Part shown: piece after piece, positions 13,862 to 23,098 of the stretch | How the letters are laid out: each line of letters begins with the position of its first letter | Position numbering within the stretch: the stretch's first letter is position 1 | DNA from: an uncultured Arenicella sp. | GTDB lineage: Bacteria; Pseudomonadota; Gammaproteobacteria; Arenicellales; Arenicellaceae | Assembly (NCBI GenBank): GCA_937989675.1 | Contig: CALKRK010000176.1 | Location: 1-39,390, forward strand | DNA length: 39,390 bases | Direction of reading: 5' to 3' | The notes under the pieces: generated by a model | What the model saw: only the letters and a program-made list of their open reading frames with translations | Databases searched by the model: none | Told to the model about the DNA's origin: nothing | Made by a program: the position numbers and the translations under genes

Positions 13862-14677
13862 ATGGCAGACGACATATTTCTGACCCCCGAAGAACAAGAT
13901 GAGCGCGCGCGCAAGTGGCTAAAAGACAATGGTCCTGCACTCGTAATAGGTATCGCGTTGGGGTTGGGCGGCATTTTTGGCTGGAATCAATATAAAGCCG
14001 GTCTCAAAAGTAAAGCTGAGACCGCTTCTGCACTCTATTCGACCGCAATTGAGGAGGTTCGTAGTTCTCAGCTTTCTGATATTGATGCTCAGGTCATTGA
14101 GCTGAAAAAAGATTACAGTGGTTCTTCGTATGCAGCTAAAGCATCGCTCTTGAAAGCTAAGCAATTGTCTGTGAGTGATTTACCTGCGGCTTTTGAGGAA
14201 CTGCAGTGGGTTTTGGATAATGCCGAGGAGTCTGGTTTAGTGCATACTGCACGAATTCGGCAGGCAAAAATAAAATTGGAAATGGGTGAGCTTGATGCGG
14301 CTAAAGCATTGGCCAGCCATACTCCTACACAAGGTTTTGATAGTTATTATGCTGAGTTGCTCGCCGATATCGCCGTTAAAGAAGGCGACACCGATACCGC
14401 TCGCTCTCAATATCAGGCCGCTATAGAGTCGTTAACGCAAGGGCAGAGCGGCTACGCTCGTTTGATATCGTTAAAGTTAGATCGTCTTCCTGCTTTAGAG
14501 CTAAATGAAGCAGAGGAAGTTAGCAAAAGCCCTGCTGTTGAAGAAGAAGCACAAGCGTCTTTAGATGAAACCCAAGAGCCTTCAGCTGAAATAGAAGAGC
14601 CATCCGCCGAAACTGAAAAGCCATCCGCCGAAACTGAAGAGTCTTCGACCGAGCTTCAAGAGGAGACAGATCAATAG
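13862..14677 (+). CDS. yfgM: Inner-membrane TPR protein YfgM
   Basis: YfgM is an inner-membrane protein facing the periplasm that associates with SecYEG and the chaperone PpiD. The N-terminus is cytoplasmic (1-24, DDIFLTPEEQDERARKWLKDNG, strongly conserved in the family), followed by one membrane helix (25-42) and a helical TPR-like domain (to about residue 215). The C-terminal 40-odd residues are an acidic low-complexity tail with four copies of a 7-residue unit, not part of the family core of about 206 residues in E. coli. It lies just upstream of bamB, as is usual. Confidence 0.9.
   Translation: MADDIFLTPEEQDERARKWLKDNGPALVIGIALGLGGIFGWNQYKAGLKSKAETASALYSTAIEEVRSSQLSDIDAQVIELKKDYSGSSYAAKASLLKAKQLSVSDLPAAFEELQWVLDNAEESGLVHTARIRQAKIKLEMGELDAAKALASHTPTQGFDSYYAELLADIAVKEGDTDTARSQYQAAIESLTQGQSGYARLISLKLDRLPALELNEAEEVSKSPAVEEEAQASLDETQEPSAEIEEPSAETEKPSAETEESSTELQEETDQ
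14576..14659 (+). repeat. Four 21-bp in-frame repeats in yfgM
   Basis: Four 21-bp units (14576-14596, 14597-14617, 14618-14638, 14639-14659) encode EPSAEIE, EPSAETE, KPSAETE and ESSTELQ. Units 2 and 3 are almost identical at the DNA level, so the duplication looks recent. The repeats extend the acidic C-terminal tail of YfgM in the periplasm. Confidence 0.9.
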
Positions 14678-19291: not shown

Positions 19292-20620
19292 CTAGCGAAC
19301 TTTCTGAACCAAGCAGTCAAGACTTCCATCGCTCAGTTGCACAGAAATCCTGTCATTTTCTGCGACGGCGTCAGTTGTTCTGACGATGGAGTGTTGTTGA
19401 TCACGAGCAATGGAAAAGCCTCGTTCTAGGGTCGCAAGCGGGCTCACTGCGTTGAGCTTACCGCCCAAGGCTTCAAACTTCTGAGTGCTAAGCACAAGTG
19501 CTTGCGTTTGCACCCGTTGTAAGCGGTGGCTAAGTGCTCGTAGGTCAGAGTTGTTACGCTGTAAGCGTTTGGCTGGAAGCTGAGCCTGAATTCGCTGTTG
19601 CAAATGGCCTAGTTTATCCCGACGGCGCGCGAGCCGGTTGAGTACATTATTTTGTAAGCGCAATGAAGCGTGATTAAGCTTATCCGCTTTGGCGCTGAGT
19701 TGCTGTTTAGGGTGTACCAATTGCCGGCCCGTCATATCAATTGTTTGCGCCATCCGCTGCAGTAGGCGTTCCATGTTACGTGGTAAGCGAAATTGCATGC
19801 TTTTGATATTAGCTATCAATTGGTCTGTATCCGGGCTAACAATTTCGGCCGCTGCCGTTGGCGTTGGTGCTCTCAAGTCAGCAACCAAATCAGAGATAGT
19901 GACGTCGACTTCATGGCCAACACCGCTGATAATTGGAATAGGGCTGGCGAATATCTCGCGCGCTAAGCCTTCATCGTTAAAGCACCATAGATCCTCAAGT
20001 GAGCCACCGCCGCGACTTAGAATCAATACATCACATTGTTGGTGTTGTAGTGCATCTCGAAGCGCTTGAATGATTGATTTAGCAGCGGTCTCGCCTTGTA
20101 CTACAGCGGGGTAGATTGTGACGGGGATGCCTGGGCAGCGCCGCTTAAGAGTGGTTACAATATCTCTAACGGCTGCACCCGAGGGCGAAGTGATTAAGCC
20201 GATGTGTTTCGCGAACTTAGGTATGGCTTGTTTATGTTCTTGGGCGAACAGGCCCTGCTGATTCAACGCTTGCTTTAGTTCTTCGAACCGGCGTTGGAGT
20301 ATCCCTTCACCAGCTTCCTCCATGTGTTGCACAATGCATTGGAGGTCACCGCGTGCAGTGTAAACCGAAATCTTGCAACGGACTCTAACCAAATCCCCAA
20401 CTTTTGGGTGGTAGCGGCTGATACTAGCCCGCCCCTTAAACATGGCGCACCTGAGTTGTGAACGTTCATCTTTTAGGCTGAAATAAATATGCCCAGAAGC
20501 AGGCGTGCTCAACGACGATAACTCCCCTTCGATCCACACTTCTGGGTAACTCGTTTCCATTAAACGTCGCATTTCATCGGCGAGTTCGCTGACTTGATAG
20601 ACTGTTGGGGTTTGCTTCAT
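19292..20620 (-). CDS. xseA: Exodeoxyribonuclease VII large subunit XseA
   Basis: Large subunit of exonuclease VII, which degrades single-stranded DNA to short oligonucleotides together with XseB. The N-terminal OB-fold (VWIEGELSSLSTPASGHIYFSLKD), the catalytic core motifs (GAAVRDIVTTLKRRCP, GGGSLEDLW, SGVGHEVDVTISDLVADLRAPTPTAAAE) and a long basic coiled-coil region (about 280-400) are all visible. Length 442 is usual. The small subunit gene xseB is not in the window. The ATG has no clear Shine-Dalgarno sequence. It heads a three-gene minus-strand run. Confidence 0.96.
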   Translation of the reverse strand: MKQTPTVYQVSELADEMRRLMETSYPEVWIEGELSSLSTPASGHIYFSLKDERSQLRCAMFKGRASISRYHPKVGDLVRVRCKISVYTARGDLQCIVQHMEEAGEGILQRRFEELKQALNQQGLFAQEHKQAIPKFAKHIGLITSPSGAAVRDIVTTLKRRCPGIPVTIYPAVVQGETAAKSIIQALRDALQHQQCDVLILSRGGGSLEDLWCFNDEGLAREIFASPIPIISGVGHEVDVTISDLVADLRAPTPTAAAEIVSPDTDQLIANIKSMQFRLPRNMERLLQRMAQTIDMTGRQLVHPKQQLSAKADKLNHASLRLQNNVLNRLARRRDKLGHLQQRIQAQLPAKRLQRNNSDLRALSHRLQRVQTQALVLSTQKFEALGGKLNAVSPLATLERGFSIARDQQHSIVRTTDAVAENDRISVQLSDGSLDCLVQKVR

Positions 20621-20755: not shown

Positions 20756-20868
20756 GGCGGTGGTGGTTAGTCTCCACAGTGGCGATAGATTGTGAACCCG
20801 GTCAGGCCCGGAAGGGAGCAGCCGTAGCGATTGATTCGGGTGCTGTGATCAGGTTAGCTGCCACCGTT
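20756..20868 (+). ncRNA. ffs: Signal recognition particle RNA, 4.5S type
   Basis: About 113 nucleotides forming one long hairpin, the small gammaproteobacterial SRP RNA that binds Ffh. The apical domain IV is clear: GGTCAGGCCCGGAAGGGAGC (20810-20829) matches the universal Ffh-binding loop with a GGAA tetraloop. The ends pair: 20758-20764 (CGGTGGT) with 20860-20866 (GCCACCG). A T-run follows at once (20867-20875) and, with the closing helix, would serve as terminator. Exact ends are estimated from pairing. Confidence 0.95.
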
Positions 20869-20869
20869 C

Positions 20870-21082
20870 TTTTTTAGTTTCATTCAAAATTTGCGAAGCA
20901 AATTTCTGAATGAAACGCTCAGGGCTGTTTTTTAGTTTAAGTCCTCGAAAAGACGTTCGGACATAAACGCTCAGGGCTGCTTTTTAGTTTAAGTCTGGGA
21001 ACTGCTTTCAGACTTAACGGCCCAAGGCTGTTTTTTAAGTTTAAGTTTGAGAAAGGCGTTCAGACTTAAGGGATCAGAGCTG
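20870..21082 (+). repeat. Four tandem about 52-bp hairpin repeats after the SRP RNA
   Basis: Four imperfect units follow ffs. Each has a T-run, then an inverted repeat, then a version of GCTCAGGGCTG. The conserved element ends at 20927, 20979, 21030 and 21082, a 51-52 base period. The hairpins are 20877-20916, 20935-20968, 20987-21018 and 21041-21069. The stems differ but stay paired: GTTTCATTCA with TGAATGAAAC, GTTTAAGTCC with GGACATAAAC, GTTTAAGTCTG with CAGACTTAAC, TTAAGTTTGA with TCAGACTTAA. There is no open reading frame of note. This fills the gene-free stretch 20869-21193 apart from the dnaX promoter. Function is unknown. Confidence 0.85.
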
Positions 21083-21116
21083 ATTGGTCCAAGACTGTTA
21101 AATGTTCTATCTATTG

Positions 21117-21193: not shown

Positions 21194-23098
21194 ATGGCAT
21201 ATCTAGCACTGGCTCGAAAATGGCGACCTAAAGCTTTCTCTGAAGTGGTGGGGCAAAGTCATGTCGTGCAGGCTTTGTCTAATGCGCTCGATTCAGGGCG
21301 TGTGCATCACGCCTTTCTGTTTACCGGCACGCGTGGTGTAGGCAAGACCACGCTTGCGCGAATCTTCGCAAAGTCATTAAATTGCGAATCGGGTACGAGT
21401 GCTGAACCTTGCCAACAATGCAGCACTTGCCAATCGATTGACGAAGGTCGTTACGTTGATTTGATAGAAATTGACGCGGCTTCGCGCACCAAGGTTGATG
21501 ACACGCGTGAACTATTAGAGAGCGTTCAGTACGCGCCTACCTCCGGCAAAGTTAAGGTTTATCTCATTGACGAGGTACACATGCTCTCCGGGCATAGTTT
21601 TAATGCCTTGCTTAAAACTCTCGAAGAGCCTCCTGAGCACGTTAAATTCTTGTTTGCAACGACCGATCCACAAAAAATGCCGGTCACGGTCTTGTCTCGT
21701 TGTCTACAATTCAATTTGAGGGCGATGCGGCCAGAACAAGTCGAAAATCAACTGGTTAAGATTTTGGGTAGTGAGGGTTTGAGTTTTGATCAAGCCGCGT
21801 TGCACTCCCTTGCCAAGGCGGCCGACGGTAGCATGCGAGATGGTTTGAGTTTGCTAGACCAAGCCATTGCTCAAGGTGGCGGTGAAGTTAGGCTCGCTGA
21901 TGTTGAAGGTATGCTCGGAACGATTAAAAGCGAGCATACCGAGGCAATTATCAAAGCGTTGGCGGCGGCAGACGTCGATCAAGCGCTAAATGTCGTTGCG
22001 GATATGGCTGATAATGCGGTTGATTTTTCCGTTGCGCTGGATGACGTGTTAATGCAGTTGTATTACGTCTCGTTAGCGCAGATCGCACCAAGCTCACTCA
22101 GTGCCACTGACGCGAATACTGAGATGATCTTATCGATTGCATCGACGCTGACGCCGGAGACCGTTCAATTATTCTATCAAATTGGCTTGATCTCCAAACG
22201 TGACATTCCGCTTGCGCCGAGTTTACGTGTGGGGTTTGAAATGGCTCTATTGCGGATGTTGGCGTTTGAGCCTAGTAGTAGTGAAACGGTTACGCAGGTT
22301 ACCGGTTTAGGTAATGCGGCTAGCGAAACATCTAATGCGGTGCCGGCCTCAGCAAGTTCACCAGCGGCACCTCAACAAGTGGCTGAATCAGCACCTACGA
22401 GCCGTTTGCAAACTCCAGATCAAACTCCAGTAAGTAGTGCGCCGGCCGCGCCTGAGCCGCGTTCTGTTCCGCCAATGCAACCGCAGGGCGGGATGCAACA
22501 AACGGCGCCGGAAGCAAATTACACGTCTAGTTCAGCAGCCGCTGAGCCGGTAATGCCTGAGCCAGTGGCAGTTCCTTCTCAGTCCGCACCGAGTCCGGCC
22601 GCACCGAGTCCGGCCCCGGCCCCAGTTCCACAAGCTATGCCTTCTCCCGCTCCGGCTGCGAATTCGGTAGCTCCAACGCAAGCGGTGACTCAACCGAGCG
22701 CGATTGCCGTCACCTTGGCGGGTAATAATGAATGGGGCGAGTTAGTCGAGCAAACCAATTTAATTGGCTTGCCGAAAGAGCTTGCAATGAACTGCGCTTG
22801 TGAGAGATTAGCGGATGATAAAATTCAGCTGAGTTTGGCGCCAAAACTGCACCACCTATTAAAACCGGAACGAATAGCCAAGATTCAGGAAGCGATTCGC
22901 GTGGTGCTAAACTCGCAAGCGGAGATTGCTCTTGAACTTGAAGAAAGTGATAAAGAAACTCCGGCTGAGTGTTTGGCTAGATTGGGCCACGAACAATTCG
23001 AGCAAACCAAAGAAAGCATCAAAAACGACCCTGGCGTTAAAGCCATTATGTCGGAATTTGGTGCTACCCTGAATGAAGATTCGATCAAGCCAATATAG
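21194..23098 (+). CDS. dnaX: DNA polymerase III subunit tau DnaX
   Basis: DnaX forms the ATPase core of the sliding-clamp loader; the full-length tau form also ties the polymerase core and DnaB helicase together. The 634-residue protein has Walker A GTRGVGKT (45-52), zinc cysteines C64, C73, C76 and C79, Walker B LIDEVHM and the sensor segment LFATTDPQKMPVTVLSRC. A long Ala/Pro-rich linker (about 370-515) separates the clamp-loader domains from the tau C-terminal domain. I found no A AAA AAG slippery site in the linker, so a gamma form by the E. coli frameshift is not supported. No Shine-Dalgarno sequence precedes the ATG. Confidence 0.96.
   Translation: MAYLALARKWRPKAFSEVVGQSHVVQALSNALDSGRVHHAFLFTGTRGVGKTTLARIFAKSLNCESGTSAEPCQQCSTCQSIDEGRYVDLIEIDAASRTKVDDTRELLESVQYAPTSGKVKVYLIDEVHMLSGHSFNALLKTLEEPPEHVKFLFATTDPQKMPVTVLSRCLQFNLRAMRPEQVENQLVKILGSEGLSFDQAALHSLAKAADGSMRDGLSLLDQAIAQGGGEVRLADVEGMLGTIKSEHTEAIIKALAAADVDQALNVVADMADNAVDFSVALDDVLMQLYYVSLAQIAPSSLSATDANTEMILSIASTLTPETVQLFYQIGLISKRDIPLAPSLRVGFEMALLRMLAFEPSSSETVTQVTGLGNAASETSNAVPASASSPAAPQQVAESAPTSRLQTPDQTPVSSAPAAPEPRSVPPMQPQGGMQQTAPEANYTSSSAAAEPVMPEPVAVPSQSAPSPAAPSPAPAPVPQAMPSPAPAANSVAPTQAVTQPSAIAVTLAGNNEWGELVEQTNLIGLPKELAMNCACERLADDKIQLSLAPKLHHLLKPERIAKIQEAIRVVLNSQAEIALELEESDKETPAECLARLGHEQFEQTKESIKNDPGVKAIMSEFGATLNEDSIKPI

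Follow-up and report, generated by a model that had tools for sequence, protein, structure and literature searches.

Bacterial genomes often contain small palindromic repeats, and whether these benefit the host is disputed. Rickettsia palindromic elements (RPEs) are small palindromic repeats that occur between genes and, in frame, within them, STRRs are heptamers, and rtT RNA (Rfam RF00391) comprises tandem repeats after tyrT of Escherichia coli, with copies of ~180 bp that carry the tRNA 3′ end. REP/BIME sequences, which are GTAG-tagged and RAYT-associated, are short, dispersed extragenic hairpins, often clustered and in many cases plausibly transcribed and located 3′ of coding regions, and the RPEs of R. 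conorii carry a CGTC tag (PMC3733652). The cyanobacterial STRRs lie also within the RNase P RNA gene, rnpB (Vioque 1997, cited in PMC2858038). Finally, the TAACTGA direct repeats of marine Beggiatoaceae are lineage-specific, are located in some cases at ribosomal protein genes and have been proposed to act post-transcriptionally (PMC4679880).

Here, we analyzed the spacer between the SRP RNA gene (ffs) and dnaX in the window, that is, the whole 39,390-nt stretch of DNA from an uncultured Arenicella sp. The tandem repeats reported at 20870-21082 in a preliminary description are present, with the shared element ending at positions 20927, 20979, 21030 and 21082, and make up four units of 51-59 bp each (Table 1). 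Units 2-4 are 51-52 nt in length, and unit 1 spans 59 nt; TRF detected a 52-bp, 3-copy array (score 168), and a repeat search found copies spaced by 51/52. As was also described, the first T-run (20870-20875) is that of the terminator of the SRP RNA, whose Rfam match ends at 20861, and it doubles as the T-run of unit 1. The plan of a unit is a T-run, AAG, a variable AT-rich hairpin of 8-11 bp (outer stem TTTAAG/CTTAAA, variable inner stem) and then a small conserved core that can fold as a mini-hairpin, GCY-NNR-GGC. The arms of the hairpin change in concert, as had been noticed, with GTCC/GGAC in unit 2 against GTCT/AGAC in unit 3, and the stem of unit 1 is unrelated.

Table 1. Features of the ffs-dnaX region, with positions in the window
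Feature	Position	Strand	Evidence
xseA (exonuclease VII large subunit), divergent upstream neighbour	19292..20620	-	NCBIfam TIGR00237, 484 bits
SRP RNA (ffs), bacterial small type	20766..20861	+	Rfam RF00169, 68.4 bits, E 2.8e-13
Unit 1: T-run, hairpin 20877-20916, core GCTCAGGGCTG 20917-20927	20870..20928	+	CM R1 genome-wide match E 2.4e-7; fold z -5.95
Unit 2: T-run, hairpin 20935-20968, core GCTCAGGGCTG 20969-20979	20928..20979	+	CM R1 39.6 bits; fold z -0.5
Unit 3: T-run, hairpin, core GCCCAAGGCTG 21020-21030	20980..21031	+	CM R1 45.7 bits; fold z -3.47
Unit 4: T-run, hairpin, degenerate core GATCAGAGCTG 21072-21082	21032..21082	+	CM R1 40.7 bits; fold z -1.7
Degenerate fifth core GGTCCAAGACTG, without hairpin	21086..21097	+	Read by eye; comparable cores in other arrays of the genus
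dnaX (DNA polymerase III gamma/tau), downstream neighbour	21194..23098	+	NCBIfam NF005942, 762 bits

All four units are matched when the whole genome is searched with a covariance model (R1; E 7e-10 to 2e-7), three of the four being in its training set. When each unit was folded and compared with shuffles, units 1 and 3 proved strong (none of 200 shuffles equals unit 1), whereas units 2 and 4 are weak and unconvincing singly; the entire array folds better than shuffles (z = -4.46). An Rfam scan of 20868-21100 yielded no family besides the SRP RNA at threshold, only chance-level matches (E 1.8 or worse). Elsewhere in the window, there is a 15-bp tandem repeat inside the linker region of dnaX (22584-22615) and, in the C-terminal part of a 271-aa protein, an in-frame repeat of 21 bp (14567-14652), the minus strand of which contains a core-like GCTGAAGGCTC, a weak model match (E 0.17).

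Comparison with related genomes reveals that the array at ffs is one instance of a dispersed and previously unrecorded repeat family specific to a marine bacterial genus; we found no description of these repeats in the open-access literature (subscription papers may differ). In sister species, the ffs spacer contains arrays with different stems and the same core, GCTCARGGCTG. This 11-mer is dispersed in the genus, with 107 copies in one genome (G013) versus 1 for the reversed control, and, extended by TT, can be found in 16 of the 18 genomes of the genus and is very rare elsewhere in the order (≤2 per genome). Most of the core copies are tandem, with a spacing particular to each array that amounts to 16-23 bp without a hairpin and ~41-79 bp mostly with one, and a second form of the core, GCYGCRGGCGCTG, is found in spacers of tRNA and ribosomal operons. 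R1, which was built from 38 units, gave 62 matches at E ≤ 1e-3 in 11 of the 18 genomes (all drafts, many of them metagenome assemblies, in which arrays at contig ends may be collapsed), in strong support of the small repeat family that had been listed among the initial readings. No match was obtained in 91 other genomes of the order or, beyond the genus, among 369 evenly drawn genomes of the class, both sets searched with stricter filters under which weak matches are lost. Given that 7 of the 18 genomes of the genus have no match at 1e-3, the element is dispensable. One genome of the genus, G012, is identical in sequence to the marine MAG ALOHA_ZT_16.

The 62 matches represent 30 genome-by-spacer sites, of which 28 lie at translation or stable-RNA genes, as tallied by hand with flanking proteins named by NCBIfam. 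The sites are the fusA-tuf side (5), rpsK-rpsD (4), ffs (4), rplA-rplJ (3), tRNA-Thr to tuf (3), rpsG-fusA (2), the Thr-Tyr-Gly-Thr tRNA operon (2), tRNA Val-Asp (2), the region before rpsF (2), the inside of RNase P RNA (1), hupB (1) and dapB-carA (1). To speak of a layout at ffs was, accordingly, to see the family too narrowly, since it occupies about a dozen kinds of site, nearly all of them translation-related, and ffs is but one of these. By the same manual tally, 60 of the 62 matches are in the sense of the flanking gene, the exceptions being G000:C11:345 and G002:C68:12851. Units linked to tRNA genes are flush with the tRNA 3′ end (of 11 examined, ten at 0-1 nt and one overlapping it by 1 nt), the fusA-tuf element starts at the fusA stop codon in four species, and the core is present in three arrays adjoining 6S RNA. 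In a tree of dnaX fragments, unit presence is clustered, at a resolution too poor to count gains. In a species without hairpin units (L033 of G004), the ffs-dnaX spacer is filled by an unrelated GTTGGTTCTGACAGTATTAAGA-like tandem repeat.

The preliminary description held that structure rather than sequence is kept in these stems, and this is strongly borne out, including in units outside the training of the model. Among the 38 units, some of which were picked because they folded, 9 of the 11 pairs of helix 1 have changed on both sides, with a score of 0.366 versus 0.139 for shuffled alignments (0 of 500 shuffles) and 65 double-changed cells versus 18 in shuffles. Because of this selection, 20 model-found units from elsewhere were tested, and these held-out units reached a compensatory score of 0.50 versus a mean of 0.087 and a maximum of 0.19 in 1000 shuffles, in an alignment fitted to the structure, which biases the compensatory count upward. 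Compensating stem pairs are found also in orthologous spacers, namely, 9 at ffs, 5 at tRNA-Thr-tuf and 4 at fusA-tuf, with fewer at rpsK-rpsD (1) and rplA-rplJ (none). In helix 2, 33 G-U cells face 3 A-C cells on the sense strand (cells are not independent), an excess as would be expected from pairing in RNA. In helix 1, G-U is barely in excess of A-C (25 versus 18), so that the main stem alone cannot separate RNA from DNA pairing.

The hairpin form looks functional as RNA because of its sense bias, its bias to translation genes, its compensatory changes and its flush position at RNA 3′ ends. We propose, at a probability of about 0.5, that the units are transcribed, structure-selected repeats which would serve as hairpins of RNA 3′ trailers and intercistronic regions, REP-like in their action; both this function and the mode of spread are inferred. 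Once transcribed, the hairpins would become 3′-trailer and intercistronic elements, in a role like the one proposed for REP/BIME hairpins, and could shield upstream RNA against 3′-to-5′ exonucleases, and the U-runs between them might be cut as single strands, which would separate cistrons or tRNAs; the tandem copies would arise by local duplication. It is also conceivable, if rather unlikely, that the units are cis-acting RNA elements dedicated to the translation apparatus and make up a regulon across the genus. The GCY-NNR-GGC mini-hairpin would then be recognized by a trans-acting factor, either a protein or a ribonuclease, at the 3′ ends of transcripts for tRNA, SRP, 6S, ribosomal proteins and elongation factors, and the stability or processing of these transcripts would be coupled.

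A close rival to a role at the RNA level, and a distinct possibility, is a selfish repeat with transcription-linked insertion, i.e., a small palindromic, mobile or slippage-born piece of DNA, comparable to RPEs or REP, that lands one way round in highly transcribed spacers, with the hairpin kept for spreading rather than for the host. The core occurs by itself at many scattered loci, amplified in tandem to the numbers given above, and copy number varies widely among species. At ~55 loci analyzed with a simple ORF caller, core-only arrays are sense roughly as often as antisense with respect to co-directional neighbours, and reversed arrays often overlap the 3′ end of the neighbour, with the core providing its TGA stop (L239, L242, L243, L244, L245, L255, L257 and L263). 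Core arrays also invade ORFs, with periods divisible by 3 in 8 of the 8 cases noted (a calculation that takes the periods as independent), and predicted ORFs with arrays of period 18 or 21 contain in-frame peptide repeats (L225, L227, L236, L237, L238, L241 and L261); all arrays seen in ORFs were of the core-only kind, and the hairpin form was encountered outside protein genes. At rpsF, 6S and ffs, core-only arrays of G013 occupy positions that are taken by the hairpin form in other species, so that the two forms seem interchangeable at one site. The core-only arrays look like a spreading minisatellite and, being free of orientation bias and in part located inside ORFs, appear to speak for a spreading repeat over a regulator.

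The same direction is indicated by the RNase P RNA of the window's genome (L270:203-580; G000, C241), in which, compared with the Rfam model, 31 nt are inserted at the P16-P17 junction; this insertion, TAGTTTTGGTGCCCAAAAGGCTCAAGGCTGT, consists of a T-run remnant, a hairpin and the core, at a site that is empty in several sisters. Elsewhere in the genus, this junction holds other, unrelated hairpins in six genomes and nothing in seven; given that, among the seven genomes with a hairpin here, only that of the window has the family core, the junction looks like a generally hairpin-tolerant spot. In G006, there are two RNase P RNA matches (L385 and L388), one of them partial. Against a selfish repeat, the orientation of the matches and their near-exclusive translation-gene sites require an additional assumption of insertion bias, and a mobilizing gene was not found. 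Some carriers have no Y1 transposase: no association with RAYT is seen in G015, from which Y1_Tnp is absent (99% complete genome) despite 33 cores and 13 hairpin matches at E ≤ 0.05. The full-length Y1 transposase match in the window's genome is of the IS200 type, and the transposase loci examined contain only two core-like matches, both truncated; mobilization of the RAYT/REP kind is thus unsupported either by the presence of Y1 transposases or by their flanks.

Tandem terminators, another of the initial suggestions, are improbable, whether as weak terminators or as attenuators that would limit read-through from very strong promoters, here from ffs into dnaX. In tandem arrays, the cores do precede T-runs, the ffs array comes after the T-run of the SRP RNA, and the core of unit 3 forms a 5-bp GC hairpin immediately 5′ of T6, the only terminator-like site of the array; however, this site (21016-21032) is the single one that passes a terminator scan, against a mean of 0.8 in shuffles. 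When a GC-rich stem directly followed by a T-run was sought in each unit of the window, it was found in 1 of 4, short of an array of terminators. Furthermore, several single units, e.g., at rpsK-rpsD, have no T-run 3′ of the core, and other units lie between co-directional ribosomal genes and between tRNAs for which co-transcription would be expected. Unit 3 at ffs may act as a terminator, but termination cannot be what the units do in general. Finally, a chance local duplication with palindrome-correcting mutation and no function, although the copies inside one array clearly are duplicates, is hardly credible and already contradicted by the genus-wide distribution, with like architecture at unlinked sites in 11 species, by the orientation and site bias and by the strong covariation in held-out units, which emerged from the covariance-model search of the genome and its relatives suggested in the preliminary description and the absence of which would have pointed to such a duplication.

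Whether the units are RNA hairpins selected for their structure, as we favor, or DNA that spreads for its own sake, they constitute, in one lineage, a sense-strand family that is nearly confined to translation genes and displays strong compensatory evolution. Close species carry or lack units at identical spacers, and these natural occupied and empty sites make the question of stabilizing RNA versus selfish DNA directly testable by comparison.

Two other candidate resemblances were discarded: integron attC-like sites, the ends of which, judged by eye, do not fit, and a Nus boxA-like 5′ foot (GCTCTTTAAG, in few units), which is unconserved across units. Among the described systems, rtT RNA likewise comprises tandem repeats immediately 3′ of a tRNA gene but differs in the length of its copies and the tRNA 3′ end they include, and the Rfam scan recovered no such family here. 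The RPEs, too, are small palindromic repeats, whereas our family is unrelated to them in sequence, has the CGTC tag at one end in none of 54 distinct units and has not been seen, in its hairpin form, in protein genes. The TAACTGA repeats share the shortness, the lineage specificity and the sites at ribosomal protein genes but are 7-mers just 5′ of start codons, without a two-hairpin unit (PMC4679880). STRRs are also short and tandem, are dispersed within a single lineage and likewise enter rnpB, but they consist of heptamers, whereas our unit is an 11-bp core plus a spacer or hairpin that differs from locus to locus. With respect to REP/BIME, the family differs in its sites, nearly all of which are at translation and stable-RNA genes, and in that none of 54 distinct units has a GTAG tag at the foot of its hairpin, but its units are, as in those sequences, short, dispersed and often clustered extragenic hairpins.
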